Positions 4,885-29,082 of a DNA stretch of 36,371 nucleotides are shown here, piece after piece (the stretch's first letter is position 1; every line of letters starts with the position of its first letter). The translations under genes were made by a program, and so were the position numbers. Origin of the DNA: Bacteroidaceae bacterium (GTDB taxonomy: Bacteria > Bacteroidota > Bacteroidia > Bacteroidales > Bacteroidaceae); NCBI GenBank assembly GCA_017381015.1, contig JAFOCV010000098.1:1-36371 (forward strand), written 5' to 3'. Under the pieces are notes generated by a model, which did no database searches, had not been told where the DNA came from, and saw only the letters and a list, made by a program, of their open reading frames with translations.

Positions 4885-5041
4885 ATTTTAGTATTGCGTT
4901 ACACAATACACAAATTTCGGAGGGATATTTTAGTATTCTGCTACACGATACTAAAATTTAGATTCTATTTTTTAGTATTCTGTTACACAATACACAAATT
5001 TTGGCTTGAGATTTTAGTATTGTGTTACACGATACTAAAAA
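4885..5041. repeat. array of four 42-bp units, each carrying a long dyad (array A)
   Basis: Units begin at 4885, 4927, 4969 and 5011, exactly 42 bp apart. Each opens with (A/T)TTTTAGTATT, followed by ACAC at the same offset. Units 2 and 4 are near-perfect palindromes: left arm TTTTAGTAT, then a GTGT-like/ACAC centre, then right arm ATACTAAAA. Units 1 and 3 share a different right arm (AATACACAAATTT), so the order is ABAB with an 84-bp higher-order period. The array fills almost the whole 250-bp gap between convergent manC and ybeY. It may also act as a terminator or protein-binding region; that is inference. Confidence 0.85.
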
Positions 5042-5078
5042 ATGAGGCCGTTTTATGCCCTGCTACACTCATTTCTCG

Positions 5079-5501
5079 TTAGAAAAAGTTGTGAAGCAGA
5101 GCCAAAGCCTTGTCTTCAGCCATTCGCATCTCTTGTGCCTCTTCATCGGTGAGGTCGTCTATACCACAGAGGTGAAGTACGCTATGTATTACTACGCGGA
5201 GTAATTCTTGGTCGTAGGGAGTGGAAAACCGTTCCGAATTGGTGCGTACGGTGTCAAGAGAGATGAACGTATCGCCCGAGAGAAGATTGCCCTGGCAGGT
5301 GTCAAAGCCAATGTGGTCGGTATAGTAGTCGTGACCGATAAACTGACGGTTGATGCGCAGAATTTCCTCGTCGTCCACGAAGATATAGTTGATGGTGTCC
5401 ACTCGCTTGCCATAACCAAAGGCCACCTCCTCTATCCACTTGGAGATGGCCTCTTGATTGAAATCAGGCAAGTTGACGTTTATTGCATTGTATGTAATCA
5501 T
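5079..5501 (-). CDS. ybeY: endoribonuclease / rRNA maturation factor YbeY
   Basis: Predicted metal-dependent RNase of the UPF0054/YbeY family, acting in 16S rRNA 3' maturation and ribosome quality control. The product has 140 residues, the usual size for Bacteroidetes. The metal motif HGxLHLxGxDH appears as HSVLHLCGIDD: H106 and H110 are present, while the third histidine is replaced by D116 and the glycine after H106 by serine. My recollection is that Bacteroidetes members commonly lack the third histidine, so I still call it functional. The earlier motif FVDDEEILRINRQF-GHDYYTDH (about 41-63) is clear. It lies 19 bp downstream of the S41 protease and is the last gene of the parE-coaD-S41-ybeY run; the 42-bp repeat array follows. 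Confidence 0.9.
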   Translation of the reverse strand: MITYNAINVNLPDFNQEAISKWIEEVAFGYGKRVDTINYIFVDDEEILRINRQFIGHDYYTDHIGFDTCQGNLLSGDTFISLDTVRTNSERFSTPYDQELLRVVIHSVLHLCGIDDLTDEEAQEMRMAEDKALALLHNFF

Positions 5502-5520
5502 ATCGTCTGTGTTGCCTGGT

Positions 5521-7098
5521 TTATTCCTCTAGTAATTGCAAGGCTTTCTTGACGATGTCATCGTCCTCGTAGATGATGGCAAAGTACTCGTTGGTGTCCC
5601 AAATGTCACGTGCGATGAGTGCTCTGAGCATCTGTTTCACCAAGCCCTTGGTCTTCTCGGTATCTTCTTCGGAGACCTCCTCCTTCATGCTCTTCTTGCC
5701 CTCGGCGATGATATTGGCGATGATATTTTCGGGCACCACAAAATTCTTCCTGTAATCATCAAAGGTGGGATACTTGGCCTTGAGCGACTTTCTGTTCTTG
5801 CTCATAAATCTCATGTTCTCTTCCACCAGTATTCTCTTGGCCACAATCTGACGGTACAGCTTGGTATTCTTTGTGGTATCGAGAGGAACGAAATAGTCGG
5901 GCATGATGCCACCACCGCCATATACGGTGCGACCCTCGCGAAGTGTCTGGAACTTGAGCGAATCAGGGAAGTGAATGCTATCGGCATTGGTGAGCTCACC
6001 CTTGTTGAAACGATTGATTACGTCCATGCGATACTCCTTCTGCTTACCCATCTCGTAGGGCTTTTGGATGCAACGACCGCTGGGGGTGTAGTATTTAGAG
6101 ATGGTAAGGCGAATCATACTGCCATCGGGCAGATTGACTGGTCTTTGAACAAGACCCTTGCCAAAGGTACGACGACCAACCACAAGGCCTCTATCCTGGT
6201 CCTGAATGGCACCAGCAAGAATCTCTGCCGCCGAAGCCGAGTATTCGTCCACGAGCACTATTACCTTGCCTTCCTGGAAAGCATTGCCACCACGGCTCTT
6301 GAAGTTCTGACTGGGGTAAGCTCTGCCCTTGGTGTACACAATCATATCCCCCTGAGGCAAGAATTCGCTGGCTATCTCGGCAGCAGCCTGCAGATAACCG
6401 CCACCATTTTGAGTGACGTCGATAATCAGGTTTTTCATTCCCATGCCCTTTAGCTTTTCAATAGCCTCTACCACCTCCTTGTGTGTGGTAGCTGCAAAGT
6501 TGCTAAAACGGATGAGGCCCGTTTCCTCGTTTACCATGAAAGACGCGTCAACCGAGTTGAGAGGAATCTTATCGCGAACCACATCTATAAATATGGTCTC
6601 GTCAATGCCATCGCGCAAGATGCCCAGGTGAGCCTTGGTGCCACGAGGACCTCTCAATCGCTTTACAATCTCCTCCTGAGGCATCTTCACACCGGCAATG
6701 GCGGTATCGTTGACCGAGATTATACGGTCGCCAGGCATTACGCCAGCCTTTTCCGAAGGACCACCAGTGACGGTTTGTACCACCAGCAGGGTGTCGTCAA
6801 GAATATTGAATTGAATACCAATACCGTCAAACGAGCCTTGAAGAGGTTCGTTCAGTTTCTTCGTCTCCTCGGGGGTGCTGTAGGCAGAGTGAGGGTCCAG
6901 CTTCTCTATCATGCCACGAATGGCATTCTCAACCAACTTTTCCAGATTCACCGTATCCACATAGTGGTCATTGATGGTAATGGCAGAAATAATCAACTTG
7001 CGCATCTGTTCGTCTACTTCTTTTTGCGCCTTGGAGGGCAAGATGCTGACGCACAATGCGAATAGTGCGAATAGTGCAAAAAATATCTTCTTATTCAT
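5521..7098 (-). CDS. S41 family C-terminal processing peptidase
   Basis: Predicted periplasmic serine protease of the Ctp/Tsp family. A signal peptide occupies residues 1-25 (Lys-rich start, FALFALFAL core, SKAQ end). A PDZ domain lies at about 85-165 (GIGIQF, GGPSEKAGVMPGDRIISVN), and the S41 catalytic domain at about 190-375. By spacing with E. coli Tsp (Ser to Lys 25 residues, Lys to Gln 4), the catalytic residues are S289 in YSASAAE, K314 in TFGKG and Q318. The C-terminal 120 residues are helical and variable. The first 8 bp overlap the end of coaD, so translation is probably coupled. The hydrophobic core of its signal peptide is encoded by a 9-bp tandem repeat. Protease family is certain; the substrate is unknown. 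Confidence 0.93.
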   Translation of the reverse strand: MNKKIFFALFALFALCVSILPSKAQKEVDEQMRKLIISAITINDHYVDTVNLEKLVENAIRGMIEKLDPHSAYSTPEETKKLNEPLQGSFDGIGIQFNILDDTLLVVQTVTGGPSEKAGVMPGDRIISVNDTAIAGVKMPQEEIVKRLRGPRGTKAHLGILRDGIDETIFIDVVRDKIPLNSVDASFMVNEETGLIRFSNFAATTHKEVVEAIEKLKGMGMKNLIIDVTQNGGGYLQAAAEIASEFLPQGDMIVYTKGRAYPSQNFKSRGGNAFQEGKVIVLVDEYSASAAEILAGAIQDQDRGLVVGRRTFGKGLVQRPVNLPDGSMIRLTISKYYTPSGRCIQKPYEMGKQKEYRMDVINRFNKGELTNADSIHFPDSLKFQTLREGRTVYGGGGIMPDYFVPLDTTKNTKLYRQIVAKRILVEENMRFMSKNRKSLKAKYPTFDDYRKNFVVPENIIANIIAEGKKSMKEEVSEEDTEKTKGLVKQMLRALIARDIWDTNEYFAIIYEDDDIVKKALQLLEE

Positions 7099-7555
7099 TG
7101 TATTTATAGTTTATACCTTGTGGCAACCAAGGTGTTATGTCTCTTCCAAAGTGGTGTAATTCTCTCACCACACTACTGGAAATGCCAGAGATATTGGGGT
7201 CGGCCAGAAGTATCACCGTTTCCACGTTGGCCAATCGGCTATTTATATCGGCTATACCCAATTCGTATTCGTAATCCTTGACGGAGCGCACTCCGCGGAG
7301 GATAAATTCGGCTCCCACGGAGAGAGCGTAATCCACGGTGAGGCCGGTGTAGCAAGCCACCTTGATCTTGGGGTTGTCTTGATACAACTCCTGCAGGGCG
7401 CGCACCCTTTCCTCCACGGGTAGCCACCCTTGCTTGTGCTCATTGTACCCAACGGCAATGATTACCTCATCAAAGAGGCGTTGGGCTCTCTCCACCAAAT
7501 TGGCATGACCTATGGTAAATGGGTCAAACGACCCAGGGAAAATTGCTTTACTCAT
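7091..7555 (-). CDS. coaD: pantetheine-phosphate adenylyltransferase
   Basis: Predicted to transfer AMP from ATP to 4'-phosphopantetheine in coenzyme A synthesis. The 154-residue length is standard. The nucleotidyltransferase motif is [10 protein letters not shown] (8-17, with T14 and H17), and the C-terminal family signature is [12 protein letters not shown]. It overlaps parE upstream by 8 bp and the S41 protease gene downstream by 8 bp, which indicates a single transcript with coupled translation. The parE-coaD-ctp order suggests a housekeeping operon. Confidence 0.96.
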
Positions 7556-9560
7556 ATTCGTCAGCAGCGTCTTCTTCTATCACCAGATTGTCTATGATGA
7601 AGTTTTGTCTCTCCATCGTATTTTTACCCATGTAGTATTCAAGCAGCTCGGCCACTTGGTCGCTCTTGTTCAGAGTAACTTTCTCCAGACGAATATCTGC
7701 ACCGATAAAATTCTTGAACTCATCAGGGCTGATTTCACCCAGACCTTTAAATCGGGTTATCTCGGGGTCAGGACCAAGGTCGGCAATGGCTTGAAGTCGT
7801 TCCTCCTCATTGTAGCAATACTGGGTGATGAAGTCGCTACCAAAGGATATGTGTCTCTTGTGAGAATCAGAATCCTGGTTTTCGGCAATATCAGTACCCT
7901 CGTCATAAGCCTTCAGTTCCTGTTCGATGGCTTCAATCTTCTTTTTGCTTATCTTGCTGCGCTTATTGCGGATGCGGAAGAGAGGAGTTTGGAGTATGTA
8001 TACATGTCCCTTTTTGATCAGGTCGGGGAAGAACTGGAGGAAGAACGTTATCATCAGCAATCTGATGTGCATACCATCCACATCGGCATCGGTAGCCACG
8101 ATAACCTTGTTGTAGCGCAAGCCATCCAATCCATCCTCAATGTTCAGGGCAGCTTGCAAGAGATTGAACTCCTCATTCTCGTAGCACACCTTTTTGGTCA
8201 TGCCAAAGCAATTCAGAGGTTTACCTCTCAGAGAGAACACGGCTTGTGTGTTGACATCACGGCTCTTGGTGATGCTTCCGCTAGCAGAGTCACCCTCGGT
8301 GATGAAGATGCATGAATCCTCCTGCTGAGTACCGCGCGAGTCAGAAAGGTGCACACGGCAATCTCTCAACTTTCTGTTGTGAAGGTTGGCCTTTTTGCTC
8401 ATCTCGCGAGCCTTCTTGGCCACGCCAGCCATCTCCTTGCGTATCTTCTCGCTCTCCTGCACCTTGGCCAGAATGATGTCTGCTATGTCGGTGTTTTTGT
8501 GCAAGAAATTGTCCACCTGCTCCTTGATAAAGTCGCCGATGAATTTGTCTATGCTGATGCCACCTTCAGGAGCTGTGGTGAGCGAACCCAGTTTTACCTT
8601 CGTTTGGCTTTCAAACATAGGTTCCTGGATATTGATGCTGATGGCAGCTACGATACCATTTCTGATGTCACCGTATTCAAAGTTTTTGCCCGAGTAATCC
8701 TTGATAACCTCGGCAATGTACTTCTTGAACACCGCCTGATGAGTACCACCCAGCGTGGTGTGCTGACCATTGACGAAGGAATAATACTCCTCGCCATTCT
8801 GCTTGGTATGCGTGAAGGCTATCTCTATGTCCTCTCCCTTGAGATGGCAGATGGGGTAGAGGGCATCGTAGTCCATGCGGTCGTTGAGCAAGTCGGAAAG
8901 ACCATCGCGCGAGTGTATTCTCCTTCCGTTGAACATGATGGTCAGACCGGTGTTCAGATAGGTGTAGTTGCGCAGCATGGTTTCTATAAACTCGTTTCTG
9001 AATTTATAGTGCTTGAAGAGAGTAGGGTCGGGCTCAAAGTAGATGTAAGTACCGTTCTCGTCCTGAGTGTCCTCGGTGACATCGCTAATGAGCATACCCT
9101 TTTCGAAAACCGTTTTTCTCACCTGGCCATCACGATAGGAATATGCCTCGAAATGGTTGCTCAAGGCATTTACCGCCTTCAGACCCACACCATTCAGACC
9201 TACGCTCTTTTTGAAGGCTTTCGAGTCATACTTACCACCAGTGTTAAGCATAGAAACGGCTTCCACGAGTTTGCCCTGAGGGATACCTCTACCATAGTCG
9301 CGAATGCTTGCACGCAGATTGTCCTGTATGTCCACCTCAATGCGCTTGCCAGCATTCATCTTAAATTCGTCGATGCTATTGTCTATCACCTCTTTCAGTA
9401 GGACATAGATACCATCCTCGGGTTGCTGACCATCGCCAAGACGACCGATGTACATACCAGGGCGGGTACGCACGTGCTCCATGTCGGAGAGATGACGGAT
9501 GTTTTCTTCATCGTAGATAACCGTCTGTTGCTGACTCTCTACTTCCTTGATTTCTTCCAT
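7548..9560 (-). CDS. parE: DNA topoisomerase IV subunit B (ParE-type GyrB paralogue)
   Basis: Predicted ATPase subunit of a type IIA topoisomerase that decatenates and relaxes DNA. The GHKL ATP site has E57 and N61-D64 (EVIDNSIDE), DYGRGIP (88-94) and [11 protein letters not shown] (121-131); the transducer lysine is in SQTK (318-321). The TOPRIM motifs are EGDSASGS (422-429) and the acidic pair in TDADVDGMH (D491, D493). The sequence [14 protein letters not shown] is typical of Bacteroidetes ParE, whereas GyrB has EGDSAGGSAK; the 670-residue length agrees with ParE. The parC partner is not in the window. A small hairpin (9570-9590) lies just before the start codon. ParE rather than GyrB is my choice with good confidence. 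Confidence 0.93.
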
Positions 9561-9639
9561 GCTATGTTTTTGCCCGATTTAAGGGGGCAACTCGTTTCTC
9601 TGTTCAAAAAAAACAATGATAAATCTATTTCTTCCCCGT

Positions 9640-10794
9640 TTAGATGCTCTTCTTCCAGGTGTGTCGCTTTTTGGTTTCTACGGTATCAAGCGAGCGCCAT
9701 ACGCTCAGAGCTTTGCTGTTTGTTACCAATTGAGGGCAGCATTCGGCCACCACAAAACCCAATTCCTGAGCCGTAGGAATCAAGTCGGCAAACAACAGGC
9801 TGATGCATCCGGTGTCCTGGTATTCGGGTAAAGCACCGATGAGCAACAGGTCCAGGATATTGCTGCGCTTCCAATACAGGGCCTTGGCCATGTGCCACCA
9901 TCCAAAGGGCAGCATCTTGGATTTTGCCTTCTTTAGAGCATCTCTGAGGTTGGGCATACATATACCGATGGCAATGGGTTCGCCATCCTTGTTGTCAACG
10001 ATAGACACCAGTCTGTGGTCCAGTACGGGCAGATACATATCGGCATACATGTTCATCTGGCGCTCGGTCATATTGCTATATCCGTATAGGTCTTTGTAAG
10101 AAGCATTGATAATCTCGAAAACCTTCTTCACATAACCACTTTCGCGCAATTCCTTCTTTGATTTGAATTTGTGTATGCTAAAGCCATATCTGTCCTTTAC
10201 CAACTGAGCCACGCGGAAGAACTTTTGCTGGTTGGCCGAGTTTTCACCATCTTTTTGTGGAATGTTGATATTGCGCTCCACCCATACGGCATCTTCCTCA
10301 AATCCCATGGCCTGCATGTGCTCGTTGTAGTACGGATAGTTGTAGATGGTGTACATTGAACCCGGTTTCTCATAGCCTTCGAATAGCATACCCTCCTGGT
10401 CAAGGTCGGTGAATCCCAGAGGTCCCTGAATAGTATCCATGCCACGCTCCTTGCCCCATGCAATAACTGCGTCTAGGAGTGCCTTGCTCACCTCCTTGTC
10501 ATCTATGAAGTCTATCCATCCGAAGCGAACATTTCTGGTGCCCCACTTCTCGTTGGCTCTATTGTTGATGATACCAGCCACCTTGCCCACTATCTCGCCA
10601 TCGCGATAGGCAACAAAGAACTCGGCATCGCAAAACTCGAATGCGGCATTATTCTTCTTATCAAAATTCTTTAGCGTATCCTCTATCAGTTCGGGTACGG
10701 CGTTGCTACAATCTTTGTAGAGCGAATGATTGAAAAGAACGAAATCCTTCAACTCCTTTTGGGTTGAAATACGCTTGATGTGTAGTTTAGACAT
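9640..10794 (-). CDS. GNAT-like acyltransferase-fold protein, function unknown
   Basis: The product (384 residues from ATG 10794) resembles a group of Bacteroidetes proteins annotated as GNAT-like N-acetyltransferases. The N-terminal half has AEFFVAYRDGEIVGKVAGIINNRANE and RFGWIDFIDD, a typical GNAT beta4-like region. It continues with GPLGFTDLDQEGMLFEGYEKPGSMY-like sequence (residues about 125-150). The C-terminal half repeats a GNAT-like layout ending in ALPEYQDTGCISLLFADLI. I reject the longer start at 10830 because the -7 promoter element lies right there and would not transcribe it. It is 79 bp upstream of parE on the same strand and may share its transcript. The acyl acceptor is unknown. 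Confidence 0.72.
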   Translation of the reverse strand: MSKLHIKRISTQKELKDFVLFNHSLYKDCSNAVPELIEDTLKNFDKKNNAAFEFCDAEFFVAYRDGEIVGKVAGIINNRANEKWGTRNVRFGWIDFIDDKEVSKALLDAVIAWGKERGMDTIQGPLGFTDLDQEGMLFEGYEKPGSMYTIYNYPYYNEHMQAMGFEEDAVWVERNINIPQKDGENSANQQKFFRVAQLVKDRYGFSIHKFKSKKELRESGYVKKVFEIINASYKDLYGYSNMTERQMNMYADMYLPVLDHRLVSIVDNKDGEPIAIGICMPNLRDALKKAKSKMLPFGWWHMAKALYWKRSNILDLLLIGALPEYQDTGCISLLFADLIPTAQELGFVVAECCPQLVTNSKALSVWRSLDTVETKKRHTWKKSI

Positions 10795-10829
10795 ATTTAA
10801 AAAGGCTATTATCTTGTTTTTTATCTCCA

Positions 10830-10837
10830 CAAAGGTA
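10830..10837 (-). promoter_or_regulatory. -7 element for the GNAT-like gene (possibly the parE operon)
   Basis: TACCTTTG on the minus strand matches TAnnTTTG. It predicts a start of transcription near 10823 and a leader of about 30 bases before ATG 10794, which decides the start codon. A -33 TTTG is not clear. Confidence 0.55.
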
Positions 10838-10910
10838 ATTTTTTTTCTTCTATTTCTGATGAAAGAATGATGATAATCAGGTTTCTTTTAGCAAAAAGAC
10901 CTCATTTCTC

Positions 10911-10941
10911 TTTGTCAAGGTAATAAATTGTTATAATTTTG
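10911..10941 (+). promoter_or_regulatory. strong promoter directly abutting the wbqC-like start codon
   Basis: TTTG (10911-10914), a 19-base spacer and TAATTTTG (10934-10941) match the consensus fully. Only four bases (CCGT) separate the -7 element from the ATG at 10946, so the mRNA should be leaderless or nearly so. Confidence 0.7.
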
Positions 10942-10945
10942 CCGT

Positions 10946-11461
10946 ATGACCACAGCATATTTAGGTTCAATTCAGTATTACCGCAAGTTATTGCGCGAAG
11001 GTTTGCCAATAGATTTGTCAGTCAGTTATCGCAAGCAAACTTGCATGAATCGTTGTTACATCGATTCACCTCATGGAGCATTGGCATTGTCAGTGCCGGT
11101 TGTTAATCCCCATGGCCGTACTCCAGTGGGTGACATACTCATTTCCGAGCATGGCAATTGGCGCCATCAGCATTGGAATGCCCTGGTGTCCAGTTATCGT
11201 CAGACACCATATTTTGATTACTATGCCGAGGATTTTTATCCATTCTACCATGAGCAGCGCTGGCAGAAGTTGGCCGATTTCAATGCCGACCTGCATACCA
11301 CTGTGATGCGCCTTCTGGAACCATATCCCTTATTGGAGGAGAGCAGATGCTTGCGCGAGCCGTATTATCAGTTGTTTGCTCCGCGCCATGGCTTTATAGA
11401 AGACCTCAGCATCGTAGATTTGCTCTTCAATATGGGCCCCGAATCGGTTTATTATCTCTAG
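10946..11461 (+). CDS. WbqC family protein
   Basis: Belongs to the WbqC-like family, first noticed in O-antigen clusters and of uncertain biochemical role. The N-terminus AYLGSIQYYRKLL matches the conserved family start, so the ATG at 10946 is required. YRKQTCMNRCYI, ALALSVPV, WRHQHWNALVSSYRQTPYFDYYAEDFYPFY and LLFNMGPES follow in the expected order (segments at about 30-40, 46-52, 68-98 and 160-169). At 171 residues it is shorter than the roughly 200-240 of many relatives. RluA follows 51 bp later on the same strand, so the two may be co-transcribed. Family confidence is good; function is not assigned. Confidence 0.82.
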   Translation: MTTAYLGSIQYYRKLLREGLPIDLSVSYRKQTCMNRCYIDSPHGALALSVPVVNPHGRTPVGDILISEHGNWRHQHWNALVSSYRQTPYFDYYAEDFYPFYHEQRWQKLADFNADLHTTVMRLLEPYPLLEESRCLREPYYQLFAPRHGFIEDLSIVDLLFNMGPESVYYL

Positions 11462-11512
11462 GAGCAGAGCCCAACCTCCCCTTTTGAATGTGAACACCCC
11501 TTTCTCTCTCTT

Positions 11513-14024: not shown

Positions 14025-14054
14025 CTTATCTATTGTCTTTCTTATGTCTACTTG

Positions 14055-15047: not shown

Positions 15048-15075
15048 GCACCAGATATTTTTGCCAAATCAAATG

Positions 15076-15178: not shown

Positions 15179-15320
15179 GTTGGAAACTTCCGACAGTACA
15201 AAACAAACCTTGTTGAGCACCATCGGAACTTTCCGACAACGATAAATAACCTGTAAAGGACCATCGGGAACTCCCGAAAGCATAAAAATAATTATTTAAG
15301 CACCGTCGGGTACCTCCGAC
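15179..15320. repeat. four short dyads at about 42-bp spacing (array B)
   Basis: Dyads lie at 15179-15194 (GTTGGAAACTTCCGAC), 15223-15236 (TCGGAACTTTCCGA, perfect arms), 15264-15277 (TCGGGAACTCCCGA, perfect arms) and 15305-15320 (GTCGGGTACCTCCGAC). Centre-to-centre distances are 43, 41 and 42 bp. The last three are preceded by a conserved ACC(A/G), and the linkers are A-rich and variable. Arm sequences change together (GGAA with TTCC, GGGA with TCCC), which suggests that pairing is being kept. Confidence 0.75.
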
Positions 15321-15404: not shown

Positions 15405-15776
15405 AAGCCTCCAAAATCGTTTTCGACCGGTGGAAAATGCCATCGAAGGCCTCCAAAATCACTTTCGACCGGTGGGAGACGCCATCGAAGGCCTCCAAAA
15501 TCATTTTCGACCGGTGGGAGACGCCATCAAAGGCCTCCAAAATCGTTTTCGACCGGTGGGAGACGCCATCGAAGGCCTCCGAAATCACTTTCGACCGGTG
15601 GGCGACGCCATCGAAGGCCTCCGAAATCACTTTCGACCGGTGGGAGACGCCATCAAAGGCCTCCAAAATCGTTTTCGACCGGTGGGAGACACCATCGAAG
15701 GCCTCCAAAATCATTTTCGACCGGTGGGAGACGTCATCGAAGGCCTCCGAAATCACTTTCGACCGGTGGGAGACAC
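15405..15776. repeat. tandem array of nine 42-bp units (array C)
   Basis: The core GACCGGTGG occurs at 15425, 15467, 15509, 15551, 15593, 15635, 15677, 15719 and 15761, always exactly 42 bp apart. The units are contiguous, with no unique spacers. They differ at only a few sites (AAATCA/AAATCG, CTCCA/CTCCG, ATCGA/ATCAA, GACGCC/GACACC/GACGTC). Within each unit CTTTCGA and TCGAAGG, plus TGG and CCA, can pair into a hairpin with a CCGG bulge. The first unit is degenerate (GGTGGAAAATG). All frames that have no stop in one unit stay open throughout. Confidence 0.92.
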
Positions 15777-15879: not shown

Positions 15880-15983
15880 TTTTCGCTCGCTTAATCGTAC
15901 CTTTGAGACTGGGTCTCTAAATTACTCACGCTTGGAAAAAATCAAATATGATTTGTTTTTTCGCTCGCTTAATCGTACCTTTG
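15880..15983 (+). promoter_or_regulatory. promoter for the 16016 gene, with a 26-bp duplicated promoter segment
   Basis: The 26 bases at 15880-15905 recur exactly at 15958-15983. Each copy ends in the -7 element TACCTTTG (15898-15905 and 15976-15983). Only the downstream copy has a good -33 element: TTTG at 15952-15955, 20 bases before the -7 element, a full consensus promoter. A third partial copy, TTCGTACCTTT, begins at 15872. Confidence 0.72.
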
Positions 15984-16015: not shown

Positions 16016-16402
16016 ATGGGAAGAAAGAAATTTTCACAAAGAGAAATTGATATCATCAGCAAATTGCTGCGTCGTAAGATGGCTGGCACTAGATTTCAGC
16101 AGAAGATGGTGCGCCACACCCTTCGCACAACTTTCGAGTTCAATATAGCCGATTTCAACATCCAGGGCAAGGCCTTTGGTCCTGAGGATCTGGAGGAGTG
16201 CGTGCGCAAGGGTCGTATACAAATCCTTGACGAGGCTACCATCGAGGCTATGAAGCAGCGCCATGCCGAGAAGCGCCTGCGCGATGAGGCTCTCCGTCAG
16301 GCAGATGCAGTGGCAGATGGCGAGATAGTAGATTGGCAGGAGGTACAGAAACAGTGGGATGAATACTATGCCCAGCACCCCGAGGAGGCTGAGAACAAGT
16401 AG
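16016..16402 (+). CDS. small conserved basic/acidic protein, function unknown
   Basis: A 128-residue protein with no signal peptide or membrane segment. Residues 1-40 are strongly basic and helical (MGRKKFSQREIDIISKLL, RRKMAGTRFQQKMVRHTLR in two parts), which suggests nucleic-acid or ribosome contact. The middle contains FNIADFNIQGKAFGPEDLEECVRKG, and the C-terminus is an acidic/charged helix ending in QKQWDEYYAQHPEEAENK. I believe similar proteins are widespread in Prevotella-like genomes, but I cannot name a family. Codon use resembles the neighbours, the promoter is strong, and the start ATG is unambiguous. It is the first gene of a possible four-gene run up to 21067. Confidence 0.8.
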   Translation: MGRKKFSQREIDIISKLLRRKMAGTRFQQKMVRHTLRTTFEFNIADFNIQGKAFGPEDLEECVRKGRIQILDEATIEAMKQRHAEKRLRDEALRQADAVADGEIVDWQEVQKQWDEYYAQHPEEAENK

Positions 16403-16443: not shown

Positions 16444-16469
16444 AGAATCCGCCTAACCCAGAGAATACG

Positions 16470-20056: not shown

Positions 20057-20101
20057 GGACCTCAGATATCCGTTTACTCACATTTTATTACTCCCTCAAC
20101 C

Positions 20102-21067: not shown

Positions 21068-21084
21068 AAATTGGTTAAAGCAAT

Positions 21085-21114
21085 AGCCCCTGATGGCTCG
21101 TGCCATCCGGGGCT
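21085..21114 (+). terminator. strong GC-rich hairpin after the LOG-like gene
   Basis: AGCCCCTGATGG (21085-21096) pairs with CCATCCGGGGCT (21103-21114), 11 of 12 positions, around a six-base loop (CTCGTG). It lies 18 bases after the stop codon. There is no U-tract, which is common in Bacteroidetes terminators, so terminator is the likeliest role. Confidence 0.55.
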
Positions 21115-21121
21115 GGGTAAG

Positions 21122-21220
21122 GAGAATAGTCCGATTACTCTGATTACTCTGAATACTCTGAATACTCTGAATAGTCCGATTATTCCGATTATTCTGATTA
21201 TTCTGATTACTCTGAATAAT
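21122..21220. repeat. 9-bp tandem array, eleven units
   Basis: Eleven consecutive 9-bp units follow the pattern C(T/C)GA(T/A)TA(C/T/G)T. Examples are CTGATTACT, CTGAATACT, CTGAATAGT and CCGATTATT. Units form local runs of like type (two CTGAATACT, two CCGATTATT), as expected from slippage. The array lies between the hairpin of the LOG-like gene and the terminator of the BI-1 gene, with no gene across it. Confidence 0.9.
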
Positions 21221-21244
21221 TACTGTCCGGTAAATATGCGTAAT

Positions 21245-21283
21245 AAAAAAGTAGGAAGAAAACTACTTTGTTTTCCTCCTACT
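21245..21283 (-). terminator. intrinsic terminator of the BI-1 gene
   Basis: AGTAGGAAGAAAAC (21250-21263) pairs with GTTTTCCTCCTACT (21270-21283), 13 of 14 positions, around a six-base loop. On the minus strand the stem is followed by six T residues (complement of 21245-21250). It lies about 40 bases beyond the stop at 21326. Confidence 0.82.
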
Positions 21284-21325
21284 CGATTATTCAATAGGAC
21301 ATGTCCTTGCGTGAGAACCAAAACT

Positions 21326-22036: not shown

Positions 22037-22059
22037 AATGGTAAGATTTTATTTCTGAA

Positions 22060-24867
22060 TTATTCGGGTAGCATTACCACGGTAATTTCATTCTTGCTCT
22101 TGAGCAGAGCCTTAGCTACGCGCTTGATGTCGTTCTGGTTAATAGACTCCAAGGTGGGGAGATATTCCTTCTCTACGTCAATACCGAAGCGATTATAGGT
22201 CTGCAGGTATGAGAGCCATGTGTTGTTCTTGTTTTGCATCTCGTGGAAGCTCTTCTGCATGTACTCCTTCACGCGTTGCATATATTCGGCAGGAATACCA
22301 TTCTGGGCAACCTTTTCAAGTTCCTGACGCATTACCACAAGGCAGGTGTCGTACATGTCGGGCTTTACATTACCCTGAACAGAGTAAGAGTAGAACCACT
22401 TGCCATCATTGCCCTTCATGTGTCCGGCACTGGCGCCCACACCATAGGAAGCACCCATATCTTCACGGATAACCTCGGTGTAGGTCATCTGCATGGCTTG
22501 GCTGAGAATGCTGGTTACCATCTCGTCCTTGATGTTCTTCTTGCCCTTGGCAGGAGCGTGAAGCAAGTATGTGGCAAGAGCCTGAGGCTGCTCCATCTTG
22601 GTCTTGTAGACATTCTTCAGAACACCATTGCGTAGCTTAAGGTCGGTGTAAACTTCCTTGTCGTTACGCTTCTGAGTGGGTAATGTAGCAAGGTACTGAC
22701 AGCAGTAGTTGGTAAGAGTATCCTCGTTGAAAGTGCCCACGAAGTAGAAGGTGAAGTCTGATGCATCGGCATAGCGGTCGGCCCACATCTCCAGAGCACG
22801 CTCATAGTTGACCTTCTGGATATCCTCCTTGCGGAACTTGATGTTCAAGGGGTGATTGCCGTAGCAGAGCATAGACACACTGTCGCTATATGCAGATGTG
22901 GGGTCGTTCTCCTTGCCCTTGAGCATGGTATAGTACTGAGTGAATAGGTTTTGAGCGGCATCGTTGTCTGCCTCGAGGGGCTGGAACTGAAGGTAAACCA
23001 GTTTGAAGAGAGTTTCAAGGTCGTCACGTGATGTGCCACCACCGATTTGTTCACTGAAAGCACCAAGGCTAGCGCTCACCTGAGCATGCTTGCCAGCCAG
23101 CATCTTGCGGAGTGTGGTGCGCTTGTAGCCGCCCAACTTAGAAGCATTGCATAGATTGTCTGCCAACTGAGTGGTGTAGATGTCCTCAATGCCATAGCGG
23201 CTGGTGCCACCAGGACTGTAGGCCTGCATGAGAACCTCATTGTCACTATGTGTGGTGGGGAGCATCACTACCTTTACACCATTGGATAGAGTTAATTCCT
23301 TGCTTCCGAAATGACCTGCTTTGCTCTTCTTGACAAAGCCAGGAGCGGGCAATTCCTTAATTAATTCGCCATCAAGACTTTCCTCCACGTGAGGAGTGGT
23401 CTTTGCCTCGTAGCCAGCTTTTACAGCAAGCAAGAGGCTATCAGTAGAGGGCTGAACATAACCATCCTTTTCGGGGTTCATGGAGAGGATGACCAGATTC
23501 TTGGTATCGCGTTTGAACAACATAGAGAACATCATGTTGCACTCGTCGATGGTCACGGTGGGTAGCATCAACTGATAGATTCTAACCTCGTCCTCCAAGG
23601 GGAGCATGGGCTCGTTGTATAGGAAGTTGTTGAGGCAAGCCTGGATGAACGAACCGTTTTCGCGCTGATTGCGGTTCTGGTACTTTAGTTCAAGACCAGC
23701 AGCCAATTGGGCAGTACGGCGGTCCAATTCGCTCTGAAGGAAACCATGGTCCAATACGGTACACATTTCCTTGATAGCAGCGGTGATAGCTTCGTATAAC
23801 TGACCTTCCTTGGGGATGATATAGCTCTCGGTACACTGGGTAGACTTGCTCAACAGGAAGTCGCCTTCGCCAAAGCTAGCGTTCAGGTAAGGAGTTTCGG
23901 GCTTGAGAAGAATCTCCTGTATGCGAGCCTTGAACATGCCTTCCACAAGAGTCTTGATAATCTTGTAGCGCATGTAGCCCATGTTGTTCTTCAGAGAATC
24001 TGCCCAAACAGGTTGGTGCTTCTGCATAACAGAAACTACGGTCATTGTCTGTTCGGGGTCGTGGTCGCTCACAACGATAGGTTCTTCATTATCGTCAACG
24101 CTATAGTAAATGCGCTTGGCAGGATTCTCTGGCAAGGTGTTGGGGGCAAACATCTCCTTGATCTTGGCTTCGGTGCGGTCAACATCGATGTCACCCACTA
24201 CGATGATACCCTGAAGGTCAGGACGATACCACTTGTGGTAATAGTCACGCAAGTCCTGATAGGGGAAGTTGTCAACTACAGACATCAAGCCGATTGGCAT
24301 ACGATTGCCAGGGCGACTGTTTGACATCAATGTGGGCAACTGGCGGTCCAGAATACGCATCTGAGCAGAGTTGCGCTGGCGCCATTCCTCATGAATAACA
24401 CCACGTTCCTTGTCAATCTGCTTCTCGTCCAAAGTCAGGGCACAGCTCCAGTCATGAAGAATGAGCAATACGCTATCCACGGTGGAAGTGCGTGCTGTGG
24501 GGACGTTGTTGATATTGTACACGGTTTCGTCAATGGCAGTATAGGCATTCAGCTGCTGACCAAACTTAACACCAATACCTTCCAGGTAGCGCAACAAAGA
24601 ATCATCGGGGAAGTGCTTAGTGCCATTGAAACACATGTGCTCCAGGAAGTGGGCAAGACCACGCTGGTGCTCTTCCTCCTGTACGGCACCTACTTTTTGT
24701 GCGATGTAGAAATTGGCCTGGCCAGGTGTGCGCAAATTCTTACGAACATAATAGGTCAAACCGTTGGGCAATTTGCCTTTGCGTGTAACGGTGTCCTGTG
24801 GCAAAGCCTGTGCATTGACACCAATAAAGAAGCATAGTGCCAACAATGTAAATAGTAATCTTTGCAT
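22060..24867 (-). CDS. M16 family zinc peptidase, full-length pitrilysin/PqqL-like, exported
   Basis: Predicted periplasmic or outer-envelope metalloprotease with two M16 halves in one chain (935 residues). A signal peptide spans residues 1-19 (hydrophobic core LLFTLLALCFFIGV, cleavage after VNA). The N-terminal half holds the inverted zinc site HFLEH (73-77: H73, E76, H77); the third ligand is likely one of the glutamates of KERGVIHEEW (153-162). The C-terminal half begins near SKELTLSNGVKVVMLPTTHS (about 520-540) and lacks HxxEH, as usual. It resembles E. coli PqqL and Bacteroides M16 proteases. It shares a short divergent intergenic region with the PBP4 gene and precedes the BI-1 gene by 23 bp. 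Confidence 0.93.
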   Translation of the reverse strand: MQRLLFTLLALCFFIGVNAQALPQDTVTRKGKLPNGLTYYVRKNLRTPGQANFYIAQKVGAVQEEEHQRGLAHFLEHMCFNGTKHFPDDSLLRYLEGIGVKFGQQLNAYTAIDETVYNINNVPTARTSTVDSVLLILHDWSCALTLDEKQIDKERGVIHEEWRQRNSAQMRILDRQLPTLMSNSRPGNRMPIGLMSVVDNFPYQDLRDYYHKWYRPDLQGIIVVGDIDVDRTEAKIKEMFAPNTLPENPAKRIYYSVDDNEEPIVVSDHDPEQTMTVVSVMQKHQPVWADSLKNNMGYMRYKIIKTLVEGMFKARIQEILLKPETPYLNASFGEGDFLLSKSTQCTESYIIPKEGQLYEAITAAIKEMCTVLDHGFLQSELDRRTAQLAAGLELKYQNRNQRENGSFIQACLNNFLYNEPMLPLEDEVRIYQLMLPTVTIDECNMMFSMLFKRDTKNLVILSMNPEKDGYVQPSTDSLLLAVKAGYEAKTTPHVEESLDGELIKELPAPGFVKKSKAGHFGSKELTLSNGVKVVMLPTTHSDNEVLMQAYSPGGTSRYGIEDIYTTQLADNLCNASKLGGYKRTTLRKMLAGKHAQVSASLGAFSEQIGGGTSRDDLETLFKLVYLQFQPLEADNDAAQNLFTQYYTMLKGKENDPTSAYSDSVSMLCYGNHPLNIKFRKEDIQKVNYERALEMWADRYADASDFTFYFVGTFNEDTLTNYCCQYLATLPTQKRNDKEVYTDLKLRNGVLKNVYKTKMEQPQALATYLLHAPAKGKKNIKDEMVTSILSQAMQMTYTEVIREDMGASYGVGASAGHMKGNDGKWFYSYSVQGNVKPDMYDTCLVVMRQELEKVAQNGIPAEYMQRVKEYMQKSFHEMQNKNNTWLSYLQTYNRFGIDVEKEYLPTLESINQNDIKRVAKALLKSKNEITVVMLPE

Positions 24868-24901
24868 GATAATTTTGTTTGTTTTGTAATTTATTCGGGC
24901 A

Positions 24902-24909
24902 CAAAGTTA
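24902..24909 (-). promoter_or_regulatory. -7 element for the large M16 peptidase gene
   Basis: TAACTTTG on the minus strand fits TAnnTTTG. The leader to ATG 24867 would be about 30 bases. The -33 region is not clear. Confidence 0.5.
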
Positions 24910-24951
24910 TAAAGAAGTCGCGGATTTTTAGCACTATTTATTAAAATAATG

Positions 24952-24959
24952 TATCTTTG
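24952..24959 (+). promoter_or_regulatory. -7 element nine bases before the PBP4 start codon
   Basis: TATCTTTG fits TAnnTTTG and lies nine bases from ATG 24969, so the mRNA leader should be only a few bases long. The -33 region is T-rich (24925-24929) but has no exact TTTG. Confidence 0.52.
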
Positions 24960-24968
24960 CAGCCCATT

Positions 24969-26288
24969 ATGAAAAAGAAGGTAAAGAAAAGAAGACTAAA
25001 GCGTTGGGTGAAGATGGTACTCTGGTGCATGTTTCTGGGTATAGGAACATGGATACTGTGGTGGCCAGCCAGCACCCTTTATGAATACTGGGAGAAGGAG
25101 CAGCAGGTATCGGAGACGGTAGATACTCAATCCGTGTCCGAGAGCACCTCTATTGCCGTCGTGAAGGAAGATACAGAGATGTATGACAGATTGGCCAACT
25201 TTGTTGCCTCGCCCACTCGTTTGGATACCTCGCATATAGCCGTGGCGGTGTGGGATTTGAGTAGCAATACCTCGGTTTTGGAGTGGCACAATGAAGAACT
25301 GATGGTGCCAGCCTCCAGCTTGAAGATGCTTACGGCCATCTCTGCGCTCAAACGCCTTGGCCCCAATCATAGCTATGTGGAGAAGGTGCTTGTGACGGGC
25401 AAACAGGTGGGTGGAACCCTGCATGGCGATGTAATACTTCAAGCCGATGACAATCCCCTGGTGGAATCTCTGGATGAATATGTCAATGCCTTGAGGCGAG
25501 CAGGCATATCAAAGATAGATGGCAGATTGATACTCAACCTGATGCGTACAGACACCTTGCGTGCACATCATACCGCCAGCTATTGGGATATTCCATACAA
25601 TCGCACCCCCATTTTGCTGAAGGGCGCACCAAGAATAGTGCAGGAAATGAGAGTAGCCCTTCGTGGAGCAGGGATTGAGGCTCCCAAGGCAGAGATTGAG
25701 CAGGGATTGAGAGTATATCCCGCCAATAGAGTGCTGCTCAGCAAGAGGACAAAGATGACCGATGTGATAGCTCCTATGCTGATATTCAGCAGCAATATCA
25801 AGGCCGATGCTCTATATTATCATATCAACCATCATCAGGATAGATACACACTGAGCACCGGAGAGCGAGAGAATACGCTTGACGTTTTTTTGCGTGAAAA
25901 TCTAGGTTATGACACCAGCAGTTTTACTCTGAACGATGGTTCTGGCCTTTCTCCGGAGAATATGGTTAATGCAGATTTCCTTTTAGCACTCTTGCGCTTT
26001 GCATGGTCTGAGCCAGAGATAAAACACATCTTGCTCAATGAGGCATTGGCCACACCAGGGCATCCTACCCGTCGTGGCTCTTTGTCATACCGCATGAATG
26101 GTCCTTTGTTTTACAATCGTATCTTTTGCAAGACGGGCACTCTCACCAGCATAGGTGCATCCAGCCTTTGCGGATACGCTCATGGCCGCAATAATCACTG
26201 GTATGCCTTTGTGGTAATCAATAGGAATTCGCCCGTAGGAGAAAGCAGACTTTACCAAGACCAGTTGTGCAAGGTTTTGGTGAAATGA
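24969..26288 (+). CDS. dacB: PBP4-type D-alanyl-D-alanine carboxypeptidase/endopeptidase (S13)
   Basis: Predicted low-molecular-weight penicillin-binding protein that trims or cleaves peptidoglycan cross-links in the periplasm. From ATG 24969 the product has 439 residues. A Lys/Arg-rich start and one membrane segment (about 14-36) act as an uncleaved anchor or signal. The active-site triad is complete: SxxK at S116-K119 (PASSLKM), SxN at S274-N276 (IFSSNIKAD) and KTG at 388-390 (FCKTGTLTS). The insertion between SxxK and SxN has the PBP4 pattern (GDVILQADDNPL, then YWDIPYNRTP). The TTG start at 24957 overlaps the -7 promoter element and is rejected. It is divergent from the M16 peptidase and converges with the feo operon only 16 bp before that operon's last stop. 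Confidence 0.9.
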   Translation: MKKKVKKRRLKRWVKMVLWCMFLGIGTWILWWPASTLYEYWEKEQQVSETVDTQSVSESTSIAVVKEDTEMYDRLANFVASPTRLDTSHIAVAVWDLSSNTSVLEWHNEELMVPASSLKMLTAISALKRLGPNHSYVEKVLVTGKQVGGTLHGDVILQADDNPLVESLDEYVNALRRAGISKIDGRLILNLMRTDTLRAHHTASYWDIPYNRTPILLKGAPRIVQEMRVALRGAGIEAPKAEIEQGLRVYPANRVLLSKRTKMTDVIAPMLIFSSNIKADALYYHINHHQDRYTLSTGERENTLDVFLRENLGYDTSSFTLNDGSGLSPENMVNADFLLALLRFAWSEPEIKHILLNEALATPGHPTRRGSLSYRMNGPLFYNRIFCKTGTLTSIGASSLCGYAHGRNNHWYAFVVINRNSPVGESRLYQDQLCKVLVK

Positions 26289-26304
26289 TACTCCCGCCTC
26301 TCCT

Positions 26305-26451
26305 TTAGCAACCACAACAGCCCCCTCCGCAATTGCCATCGCAATCATTGCAATCTCCGCCTTTACCCTTCTTTCTGGAGAAGAGTCGGTAGGCAGAGTG
26401 AAGGGCTACTATGACCACGAATGCGAGAAGTATGATGCTCTGTACGTTCAT
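26305..26451 (-). CDS. FeoB-associated Cys-rich membrane protein, 48 residues
   Basis: Read directly from the minus strand: ATG at 26451, TAA at 26307-26305, 48 codons. The first 20 residues form one membrane helix (MNVQSIILLAFVVIVALHSA). A basic stop-transfer YRLFSRKKGKGG follows, and then seven cysteines in the last 15 residues (DCNDCDGNC, then GGGCCGC). This is the layout of the small Cys-rich proteins that accompany FeoB in Bacteroidetes, and it begins 24 bp after the feoAB stop on the same strand. A role in handling Fe(II) at the inner face of the membrane is inferred. It is below common ORF length cut-offs and easily missed. Confidence 0.88.
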   Translation of the reverse strand: MNVQSIILLAFVVIVALHSAYRLFSRKKGKGGDCNDCDGNCGGGCCGC

Positions 26452-26475
26452 CGTGTTAATGCTTGAGATTATGTG

Positions 26476-28836
26476 TTAAAAAATCAGAGTTATCAGGTAA
26501 GCCACCACCCATGCAATGGCACATTGGAAGAACAGGATGAGCAAGGCCCATGTATTGCCCAATTCGCGGCGTATGGTGGCCATGGCTGCTATGCATGGAG
26601 TGTATAGCAGACAGAAGGCCATCATGGCATAGGCGGTGCTGATGGTAAATATTTCTGATAGAGGTATGTCGCCAAAGAGAGTGGACAGGGTGCTTACCAC
26701 CACCTCCTTTGCCAGCAAACCGCTCACCAGCGAGGTTACGATGCGCCAATCGCCCAGACCAAGGGGTGCAAACAATGGTGACACCAATTCTGCCAACTGA
26801 GCCAGAATGCTCTCGTTTTCCATACCTGGTTGTACCAGTTTGAGGCTGAAGGTGAATGTTTGCAAGAACCATATCAGCATGGATGCCAAGAAGATTACGG
26901 TGAAGGCTTTTCTGAGGAAGTCTCTGGCTTTCTCCCAAATCAATCGCAGGACGTTGCTGGGAACGGGCAAGCGATAGTTGGGCAATTCCAGTACGAAGGG
27001 TACTGCTTCGCCCTTGAACCATGTGTGCTTCATTATGAGGGCTACAAGGATGCTCACAATGATACCCATCAGATAGAGGCTTGTCATTACTAGTGCGGCA
27101 TTGTCGGGGAAGAATGCCGCAGAGAAGAATGCATAGATAGGAATCTTGGCCGTACAGGACATGAAAGGAGTGAGCATGACGGTGAGTCGGCGGTCGCGCA
27201 CACTGGGCAGAGTGCGGCTACTCATAACTCCTGGCACACTACATCCGAAGCCTAGGAGCAAGGGTACGATACTTCTGCCCGAAAGGCCTAGCTTTCTCAG
27301 CGGACGGTCCATTACAAAGGCTATACGTGCCATGTATCCACTATCTTCCATCAGAGACAGGAAGAAGAAGAGCAGCAATATCAAGGGGAGGAATACAATC
27401 ACCGTGCCCACACCTCCGTATATGCCATCAATGATGAGGCTTTGTATGATGGGTGCAATGTTGATGGAAGTGAGAAAAGAGTCGGTCAAATCAGTGATTT
27501 TCTCTATTCCAACCTCCATTTGCTCCTGCATCCATGCACCTATGCCATCGAATGTCAACCAAAATACCACGGCCATAATGAGGATGAACGAGGGGATGGC
27601 TGTCCACTTGCCCGTGAGAATCTTGTCTATGAATTGACTACGCAGATACTCCTTTGTGTCGTTGGGACGAACTACTGTTCGTTGGCAAATACTATTGATA
27701 TAATCGAAGCGCATGGTGGCCATGGCGGCTTGTCGGTCTAGTCCTCTTTCCTCCTCCATCTGACAAAGGATGTGCTCTACCGTCTCCTGCTCGTTTTGGC
27801 TTAGTTTAAGAGCATCTATCACCAGAGAATCGCCCTCTATCAGTTTTGCAGCGGCAAAGCGTATGGGCAGTTTGGCCTTTTGTGCATGGTCTTCAATAAG
27901 GTGCATGATGGCATGGAAGCAACGGTGTACGGCTCCGCCATGCTCCTCTGGCGAGCAATAGTCGTGGCGCAAGGGTCCCTCTTGATAGCGAGCTACGTGC
28001 ATGGCATGGCGCACCACCTCGTCCACGCCTTCATTGCGCATTGCAGAGATTGGTATTACGGGAATGCCCAGGAGAGCCTCCATCTCGTTGATGCGGATAG
28101 TGCCATGATTATTCTTAATCTCGTCCATCATGTTCAAAGCCAGAACCATGGGAATGCCCAATTCCATCAATTGCATGGTGAGGTAAAGGTTGCGCTCTAT
28201 GCAGGTGGCATCAACGATATTAATGATGGCAGAGGGACATTCTTCCAGGATGAAGCGACGGCTCACCACCTCCTCGTTGGTATAAGGCGAGAGTGAGTAG
28301 ATGCCTGGCAAGTCGGTAACGGTACTGTTGGGGTAACCCTTGATTACACCATCCTTGCGGTCAACGGTGACGCCAGGGAAATTGCCCACACGCTGATTGG
28401 AACCAGTCAATTGATTGAACAATGTGGTCTTGCCACAATTCTGATTGCCCACCAAGGCAAATGTCAGGGGCTTGTCCTTTGGGGCTTTGCCTTGCGATTC
28501 GCGCCCTTCGGCTTTCTCCTGCTCATGATGATAATGACCGCCTTCACCCAAGCCAGGATGCTGAGGTTCGGGAGTTTTTAGTATGTTGGTATTGAGTGGA
28601 GCCTTTGGTTGCACAATGGGCGAAACCTCTATCTTCTTGGCATCAGCTCGGCGCAGGGTCAGTTCGTATTCGTGTATTCTCAATTCCATAGGGTCGCCCA
28701 TGGGAGCATACTTTATCAGTGTGACGGGTACGCCAGGTAGCACACCCATGTCCAGGAAATGCTGGCGCAATGTACCGCTACCTCCCACTTTGAGGATGGT
28801 GGCCGATTGTCCAATCTTTAGTTCTGCAAGCGTCAT
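26476..28836 (-). CDS. feoB: fused FeoA-FeoB ferrous iron transporter
   Basis: Predicted GTP-regulated Fe(II) importer of the inner membrane. Residues 1-74 form a FeoA (SH3-like) domain, followed by a linker rich in His, Glu and Gly (about 75-120; it contains GGHYHHEQE). The FeoB G domain has G1 GNQNCGKT (130-137), G2 near FPGVTV (153-158), G3 DLPG (175-178) and G4 NMMD (235-238). About 400 residues of membrane helices follow, with the Gate motif LLGFGCSVPGVMSSRT and ending in LFFQCAIAWVVAYLITLIF. The 786-residue length fits FeoA + FeoB. A full-consensus promoter lies upstream and a Cys-rich partner gene lies 24 bp downstream, giving a complete minimal iron operon. Confidence 0.95.
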   Translation of the reverse strand: MTLAELKIGQSATILKVGGSGTLRQHFLDMGVLPGVPVTLIKYAPMGDPMELRIHEYELTLRRADAKKIEVSPIVQPKAPLNTNILKTPEPQHPGLGEGGHYHHEQEKAEGRESQGKAPKDKPLTFALVGNQNCGKTTLFNQLTGSNQRVGNFPGVTVDRKDGVIKGYPNSTVTDLPGIYSLSPYTNEEVVSRRFILEECPSAIINIVDATCIERNLYLTMQLMELGIPMVLALNMMDEIKNNHGTIRINEMEALLGIPVIPISAMRNEGVDEVVRHAMHVARYQEGPLRHDYCSPEEHGGAVHRCFHAIMHLIEDHAQKAKLPIRFAAAKLIEGDSLVIDALKLSQNEQETVEHILCQMEEERGLDRQAAMATMRFDYINSICQRTVVRPNDTKEYLRSQFIDKILTGKWTAIPSFILIMAVVFWLTFDGIGAWMQEQMEVGIEKITDLTDSFLTSINIAPIIQSLIIDGIYGGVGTVIVFLPLILLLFFFLSLMEDSGYMARIAFVMDRPLRKLGLSGRSIVPLLLGFGCSVPGVMSSRTLPSVRDRRLTVMLTPFMSCTAKIPIYAFFSAAFFPDNAALVMTSLYLMGIIVSILVALIMKHTWFKGEAVPFVLELPNYRLPVPSNVLRLIWEKARDFLRKAFTVIFLASMLIWFLQTFTFSLKLVQPGMENESILAQLAELVSPLFAPLGLGDWRIVTSLVSGLLAKEVVVSTLSTLFGDIPLSEIFTISTAYAMMAFCLLYTPCIAAMATIRRELGNTWALLILFFQCAIAWVVAYLITLIF

Positions 28837-28872
28837 TATCGTATTCTGGTATTATCCTTATTAAAAACGCGT

Positions 28873-28904
28873 CAAAGTTACAACTATGCTTGAGAATAAG
28901 CAAA
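28873..28904 (-). promoter_or_regulatory. promoter for feoAB
   Basis: On minus, TTTG (28904-28901), a 20-base spacer and TAACTTTG (28880-28873) match the consensus completely. The predicted leader is about 30 bases. I see no obvious Fur-box palindrome overlapping it. Confidence 0.72.
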
Positions 28905-28997
28905 TTAATTGGAGAGAAACCATCTCCAATGGTCAGTCTTATGCACCAAAATCACTATATTTAGGTATTTGGCGAGGGGTGTTTTCAAGTAAAAAAA

Positions 28998-29082
28998 TGG
29001 AATTTTCAGACTTTTGGAATGCTTTTTGGTGGGCAAAAGTAGATTTCCGAGGCTTCGGAAATGCGTTTCGCCAGGCTAAAAT
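28998..29082. repeat. diverged two-copy 42-bp repeat (array D)
   Basis: The segment with TTTTGGAATGCTTTTTGG (ending GGGCAAAAGTA) recurs 42 bp later as TTCGGAAATGCGTTTCGC (ending AGGCTAAAATGTA). The GAATGC/AAATGC junctions are at 29022 and 29064. Read on plus, the two units give 14-residue repeats FWNAFWWAK and FGNAFRQAK. Confidence 0.68.

Follow-up and report, generated by a model that had tools for sequence, protein, structure and literature searches.

Dissimilar intergenic tandem repeats share a unit length of 41 or 42 bp in a draft Bacteroidaceae genome

Across the sampled portion of a Bacteroidaceae genome, many tandem arrays lying outside genes and differing mostly in sequence have units of 41 or 42 bp, and composite arrays retain this register while their unit sequence is replaced, suggesting that length, not sequence, is what is maintained. 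The stretch of DNA that was analyzed (the window; 36,371 bp) corresponds to contig C86 in a draft genome of 2.45 Mb and 162 contigs. A sequence-only reading of the window had described four unrelated intergenic repeat families with the same 42-bp period and had proposed a common cause for the shared length, a proposal supported by the sharp enrichment of 41 and 42 in the roughly 30% of the genome sampled.

Enrichment of 41- and 42-bp periods

The genome sample consists of 60 stretches, or about 740 kb of 2,448 kb (~30%). Fifty-five stretches (662 kb) were picked without regard to repeats and five were chosen for unit matches to array A or B (see below); the enrichment counts exclude these five as well as the window. 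Genes were approximated as open reading frames (ORFs) of at least 100 aa, and the enrichment counts are of arrays outside such ORFs. Among the 43 noncoding arrays with a period of at least 12 in the 55 stretches, the period is 41 or 42 in 13 and 20-22 in 11. A lag-match count independent of TRF, made over 93 kb of noncoding sequence, gave 1727 positions at lag 42 (36 bins of 300 bp) and 716 at lag 41 (11 bins of 300 bp), while lags 39, 40, and 43 are nearly empty (39, 40, and 31 positions, respectively). At the level of families, a period of 41 or 42 is found in 11 of the 17 noncoding families of 30-60 bp (p = 7e-10 versus a uniform spread). The genome-wide test of unit lengths called for by the sequence-only reading therefore shows the predicted enrichment in the 60 stretches, with 41 alongside 42, and the broad spread of periods that would have spoken against it was not seen in the sampled 30%. 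The 41/42 pattern is real across this portion of the genome.

The arrays of 40-42 bp number 33 overall and were grouped into 24 families, a set that also takes in the five stretches chosen for their matches, individually retrieved loci, the window, and ORF-overlapping arrays. Four of the 40-42 bp arrays in the 55 stretches overlap ORFs by a crude rule; these are inside the count of 24 families and outside the 11 of 17. The family clusters rest on a 68% threshold, and one array (L132) was entered as two families despite a gradual transition between its units.

Arrays in the window

The repeat features of the window are as follows.

Array A: 4885..5041, unstranded; four 42-bp units, with an 84-bp double unit and imperfect palindromes (e.g., TTTTAGTAT...ATACTAAAA)
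Array B: 15179..15320, unstranded; four diverged units with spacings of 43/41/42 and a core resembling TCGGGAACTCCCGA
Array C: 15405..15776, unstranded; about nine 42-bp units
Promoter-like dispersed element: 15880..15983, unstranded; adjoins array C and has 74-77-bp relatives
Array D: 28998..29082, unstranded; two weak 42-bp units with the hairpin ATTTCCGAGGCTTCGGAAAT, containing GGAAATG

All four arrays were recovered where they had been placed, A, B, and C being real and D weak yet above chance. Arrays A, B, and C occupy gaps between larger ORFs. The neighbors of array A are convergent genes, one for a nucleotidyltransferase-domain protein and the other ybeY. Its period of 42 is borne out by TRF (4885-5035, 3.6 copies, 0% indels), though the 84-bp double unit (4886-5040) scores higher. 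Relatives of this array occur at three further loci in the genome (contigs C57, C107, and C145), and in two copies (L036 and L048) decayed outer units merge in register with the flank, as judged by eye. Array B was missed by TRF; a repeat search and an offset test returned the same spacings of 43/41/42 that had been read from the sequence, and contig C92 has a clean 41-bp array to which array B is related, though diverged from it. The exact 42-bp period claimed for array C holds in TRF (15407-15774, 8.8 copies, 92% matches, 0% indels), and 42 is the best offset in 7/7 adjacent unit pairs tried. Relatives of array C are found on contigs C44 (89%) and C78 (81%), and there were no matches to it across the 60 other same-genus genomes searched. 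The element adjoining it has its 74-77-bp relatives at four other sampled loci, where they are often tandem themselves.

Array D is situated between feoB and an S46 peptidase gene, inside a 102-aa ORF without a Pfam match. The 42-bp period given for it stands in part: 26 of 42 bases match between its units and its best lag-42 score of 27 was reached by 0 of 1000 mononucleotide shuffles of its intergenic region, yet only two units are clear, and among three adjacent blocks tried around it the best offset is 42 in two and 44 in one. A profile built from L030, a 42-bp array unlinked to it, also matches array D (E = 5.6e-4). In the same-genus genome G004, the stretch around the corresponding genes (L062), whose order is partly altered, lacks a 42-bp array, and no close strain capable of revealing an empty site was found.

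Register and sequence within and between families

Composite arrays keep their register while the unit sequence is replaced. In L045 (contig C92), sixteen successive 41-bp blocks pass through three unit sequences, including one unit that is half of one sequence and half of another; a linker resembles neither neighbor, and the register resumes beyond it at a whole multiple of 41. The best offset there is 41 in 13 of 15 adjacent pairs, with both exceptions at the linker. On contig C78 (L003), nine units of the C family run in register into four full units and one partial unit of a different sequence, and 42 is the best offset in 12 of 12 adjacent pairs. The twelve 42-bp blocks of L132 drift, the array ends having few bases in common, and the best offset is exactly 42 in 11 of 11 adjacent pairs with matches as low as 23/42.

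Between families, most sequences are dissimilar. In an earlier set of 28 arrays in 20 clusters, between-cluster identity had a mean of 0.43 and a maximum of 0.57, versus 0.42 and 0.55 for shuffled units. The word GGAAATG is present in 7 of the 24 families, where 0.25 are expected (p = 3.7e-9 before correcting for 831 words), and is missing from the representative unit in 17 of the 24. It is also carried by the L030 stretch, and the L030 profile matches weak 42-bp stretches in L057, L148, L133, and array D. Together, the word and the profile matches indicate that some families are old relatives, and the shared core would fit a radiation from few ancestors. The original statement that the arrays lack shared sequence is therefore partly wrong, and what survives of it is a difference in sequence between mostly dissimilar families; "unrelated" is too strong, since GGAAATG is carried by array D and also by the array directly adjoining the C family at L003. 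The sequences seem to turn over fast, as two families that were tested are private to this genome (0 of 60 other genus genomes), each being present in it at several loci (three and five).

In most cases the homology between copies breaks off at an array edge or no more than about 20 bases from it. The exceptions are a linker common to L045 and L133 and a few bases past the last unit in L041 and L175. The latter locus (contig C39) is a 52-bp single-unit copy of one family that has further AATTACAA in common with the end of array L041, making it a possible seed of a new array. Those noncoding arrays of the 55 stretches that have periods of 19-24 or 38-47 bp show no preference for gene orientation (codirectional, 11; convergent, 5; divergent, 6; contig edges, 8), the mix being equal to that of background gaps of at least 150 bp (codirectional, 74; convergent, 30; divergent, 32).

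Conservation of unit length

Copies of five families compared across loci contain 17 gaps and 533 substitutions, in pairs that are not independent. The 74-77-bp element, used as a yardstick, has 30 gaps per 239 substitutions (Fisher 8e-6 versus the arrays), and together with a second dispersed family the figure is 44 gaps per 311 substitutions (Fisher 9e-8). Gaps per substitution are therefore about four-fold lower in array copies than in other dispersed repeats, a comparison in which both yardsticks are partly tandem themselves, the second being a 21/44-bp GGTTAA family of looser register (14 gaps per 72 substitutions). The C, G, and F families show a marked deficit (4 gaps per 331 substitutions), that in A is small (11 per 187; p = 0.046), and B shows none (2 per 15; p = 1.0). 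Drift was also simulated crudely, under assumed indel sizes: 13% of families stay at 41/42 at the yardstick rate of 8 substitutions per indel, and 11 of 17 at 41/42 then has P = 1.45e-6; at the low rate of the arrays, P is 0.006 (31 substitutions per indel) or 0.15 (58 substitutions per indel). Most, although not all, families thus conserve length beyond drift with ordinary indels, and either selection or the loss of out-of-register units may be the cause. Because the simulation requires the low array indel rate, the loss of length variants is an assumption of the model preferred below.

Palindromes, composition, and helical phasing

Units of the arrays are more palindromic than expected (score 6.56 in 18 families versus 5.02 in 1706 control 42-mers; p = 3e-5), with an individually significant palindrome (p < 0.05) in just 6 of 30 of the genome's own arrays. 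Composition varies once per unit above control 42-mers (GC, p = 0.027; AA/TT, p = 0.010; both uncorrected). A four-per-unit harmonic was not found in GC (p = 0.33) and is marginal in AA/TT (p = 0.025, one of eight tests), and curved DNA was rejected as a candidate on these results. Binding sites on one helical face had been put forward because 42 bp is four turns at 10.5 bp per turn. At this pitch 21 bp is two turns, but neither 41 nor 22 bp gives a whole number of them; arrays of these units would rotate by ~34 degrees per unit, and the 16 x 41 array would drift by about one and a half turns. Strict helical phasing is therefore doubtful and the proposal is weak, although a ruler of a kind other than one helical face is possible. 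An origin from heptamers (42 = 6 x 7) was also rejected, with no enrichment of within-unit lags 7 and 14 (z = -1.0 and -1.3) and a slight one of lag 21 (z = 2.0).

Distribution in relatives

Twenty same-genus genomes contributed 40 stretches, whose noncoding families of 15-40 bp have a period of exactly 22 bp in 15 of 36 cases. Arrays of 22 bp are present in 13 of these 20 genomes, with ~30 kb sampled per genome, and arrays of 41/42 bp in G010 and, as 2 x 21, in G013. Other families of the order (20 stretches, 15 genomes) and the class (8 stretches, four genomes) have periods of 21-23 or 41-42 bp in 8 of 12 noncoding arrays; these counts are small, and four of the 12 arrays come from one genome, and three of the 8 with matching periods come from one genome. 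Noncoding arrays with a period of at least 12 were absent from twelve stretches (six genomes, 240 kb) of the phylum beyond the class. According to Klein and colleagues (PMC4596501), Porphyromonas gingivalis carries tandem repeats of 41, 23, and 22 nt, and its 23- and 41-nt repeats are without mutual homology. The 22-bp peak in the genus and the 41/23/22 series of P. gingivalis suggest that a set of lengths recurs, with a species-specific preference among them.

Comparison with known repeat systems

The MITE464/PgRS and BrickBuilt elements of P. gingivalis resemble the present arrays in belonging to the Bacteroidales, in having nearly the same unit lengths, and in their stem-loop potential, and the 23-nt BrickBuilt repeats are always intergenic, like the arrays here. 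In P. gingivalis (PMC4596501), the 23-nt repeats lie within a MITE with a leader and a tail, the 41-nt repeats lie within a MITE with repetitive flanks, and both MITEs have IS5-like terminal repeats. Unlike these, copies in the present genome mostly share the array alone, and many dissimilar families have one length. Apart from the pairs L045/L133 and L041/L175, leader or tail flanks are not shared, homology mostly ending at the array edges, and neither IS5-like terminal inverted repeats nor target duplications were noticed by eye in the flanks of fifteen arrays or array stretches.

REP/BIME elements (PMC3733652, PMC2817692) are extragenic, palindromic, and regularly spaced, like the arrays here, whose palindromic character was established above for 18 families against control 42-mers (p = 3e-5); the alternating unit types of REP/BIME elements also resemble the 84-bp double unit of array A. 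The REPs of one genome bear GTAG or CGTC tags and form a small number of sequence classes (in part PMC3733652). Unlike REPs, the present arrays vary in sequence between families, and the tags are not generally enriched. Gyrase and IHF bind REP/BIME elements. The arrays also have the tandem, homogenized units of about 10-100 bp that define minisatellites, and, as at bacterial VNTR or minisatellite loci, units are homogenized within a locus. The usual VNTR sets have assorted unit lengths; unlike these, the length here is fixed across many loci and the register outlasts replacement of the sequence. A survey of periodic repeats in 7006 prokaryote genomes names heptamers as the commonest between genes, and its period figure could hold peaks of this kind (PMC6344855). 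At the level of titles and abstracts, no account was found of a length-locked set of dissimilar intergenic repeats. As far as the literature was searched, the pattern is apparently undescribed as such, and its nearest published parallel is that of P. gingivalis.

Possible explanations

The arrays are tentatively regarded, at a confidence somewhat short of even, as hairpin-bearing intergenic minisatellites that are amplified in whole-unit steps, with length conserved while sequence drifts. Arrays would grow and homogenize by whole units, the copying step presumably being replication slippage or exchange between neighboring units. Unit length would be copied faithfully, while substitutions would arise, spread along the array, and finally replace the sequence; units of changed length would drop out of register and be lost, which may be why the length is held. 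Occasionally, one unit or a short array would be copied into another intergenic site and start a further array there, seeding from a single unit being suggested by the one example at L175. In this minisatellite model, common descent does not obviously explain the 22 peak in relatives or the 41/23/22 repeats of P. gingivalis. A sequence-independent length ruler in the Bacteroidales, in which a protein or the replication or recombination machinery makes or keeps units of ~22 or ~42 bp and is tuned to 41/42 here and to 22 in relatives, is somewhat unlikely. The main rival to the minisatellite model, and a rather unlikely one, is a structure-selective DNA-binding protein (of the HU/IHF type or a filament former) occupying one hairpin module per unit, with selection holding the unit spacing to the size of its footprint irrespective of sequence. 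The better conservation of length than of sequence, the enrichment of dyads (p = 3e-5), the once-per-unit variation in composition (uncorrected p), the indifference to gene orientation expected of a DNA-level site, and the five HU-family matches in the genome are all consistent with such a protein. However, no binding protein was identified or could be tied to the arrays, and with HU-family matches in 60 of the 61 genomes searched, the presence of such matches discriminates nothing. In addition, one helical face is not kept by the 41- and 22-bp arrays at 10.5 bp per turn, and the four-per-unit harmonic is lacking in GC and reaches p = 0.025 in AA/TT as one of eight tests.

A role at the RNA level, with transcribed arrays forming rows of hairpins that act as terminators, stabilizers, or RNase sites, would account for the excess of palindromes and could be reflected in L132, whose hairpin shifts from a TTCCAAC/GTTGGAA-like to a TTTCGTCA/TGACGAAA-like form. 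Given a structure derived from the same sequences, 85.7% of cells in the L132 units pair, versus 30-60% when slid, and few shuffles equal the observed paired fraction (1/500), covariation score (9/500), or number of both-side-changed cells (21/500). This role is nonetheless quite improbable: the pairs of L132 changed on both sides are at the level of shuffles (312/500), no doubly changed pair was found at the best dyad in 16 of 25 arrays, Rfam gave no match at the gathering threshold in four sources, and no fixed period is required for RNA to fold. Across the best dyads of the 25 arrays, G-U and A-C mismatches show no skew (95 versus 88), contig strand being arbitrary. The background-like orientation mix means that neither 3' ends nor 5' leaders are favored, and promoter or terminator arrays were rejected on the same mix. 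Mobile hairpins, whether MITE-like in the manner of P. gingivalis or REP elements mobilized by a RAYT transposase, with arrays as a by-product, are improbable as well, though one family at several loci, the single-unit copy at L175 with its AATTACAA common to the end of L041, and the linker common to L045 and L133 all point towards them, and the genome's one Y1_Tnp gene is of RAYT size, is flanked by 49-bp repeats, and has a 42-bp array downstream. Outside these two pairs of loci, the ends of homology lie at most about 20 bases from the array edges; the GTAG tag is present in 2 of 24 families (4.0 expected) and CGTC in 7 of 24 (2.9 expected; p = 0.02). Of 61 genus genomes, 7 have a strong Y1_Tnp match (E < 1e-15) and 23 have any match at E 0.001, compared with 22-bp arrays in 13 of 20, and a RAYT finds no support as the general cause because the presence of Y1_Tnp does not track the arrays across the genus. 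Coding repeats of 14 residues, diverged in sequence, had been suggested by the equivalence of 42 bp with 14 codons, and ORFs do cross array C and overlap four arrays of 40-42 bp by the crude rule. This reading was rejected on period, as neither the 41-bp arrays of this genome nor the 22-bp arrays typical of the genus have units that are multiples of 3, and its probability is very low.

If these arrays preserve length rather than sequence, then either variants of other lengths are weeded out by copying in register, or there is something that gauges the length of DNA whatever its sequence. That P. gingivalis and this genus have nearly identical sets of lengths extends the question beyond a single species.

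Repeats and genes other than arrays A to D

Features in the window and in other individual DNA stretches (L numbers)
Window 15880-15983; L028, 13675; L058, 6659; L061, 4721; L135, 8934: 74-77-bp noncoding dispersed element
Window 16016-16402, + strand: gene for a 128-aa protein, adjoining array C
L150 (contig C55), around 25083-25427: Y1_Tnp gene, RAYT-sized
L046, 9191-9389; L029, 14727-14878; L035, 12227-12299; L139, 15028-15188: 42-bp family, also in inverted-pair form
Window 21124-21218; L033, L027, L061 (2 sites), L040, L139, L025, L035: 9-bp tandem family, units GATTACTCT/GAATACTCT

At the sampled loci, copies of the 74-77-bp element are frequently in tandem; the window copy adjoins array C (about nine 42-bp units), and that in L058 lies close to a copy of array A (four 42-bp units). 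Within the window copy is TTTTCGCTCGCTTAATCGTACCTTTG, a sequence resembling the promoters of Bacteroidales, whose consensus is TAnnTTTG. The 128-aa protein, which had no match in a Pfam search, is present in six of the 41 genomes searched (its own included), all of the same genus; two of these relatives (L066 and L067) carry, downstream of its gene, 22-bp palindromic arrays that are almost identical.

The Y1_Tnp gene is accompanied by the palindrome GCCCTTTCAGGGC, with 49-bp repeats both upstream and downstream and an array of 42-bp units downstream. Inverted pairs of ~70 bp, spaced 82-83 bp, constitute the second form of the 42-bp family in L046, L029, L035, and L139, arranged as if forward and inverted units alternated.

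The 9-bp tandems were found again at many sampled loci (the sites given above are among the 12 matches listed of 16). Besides the 41/42-bp arrays, this family is a second repeat class across the genome.
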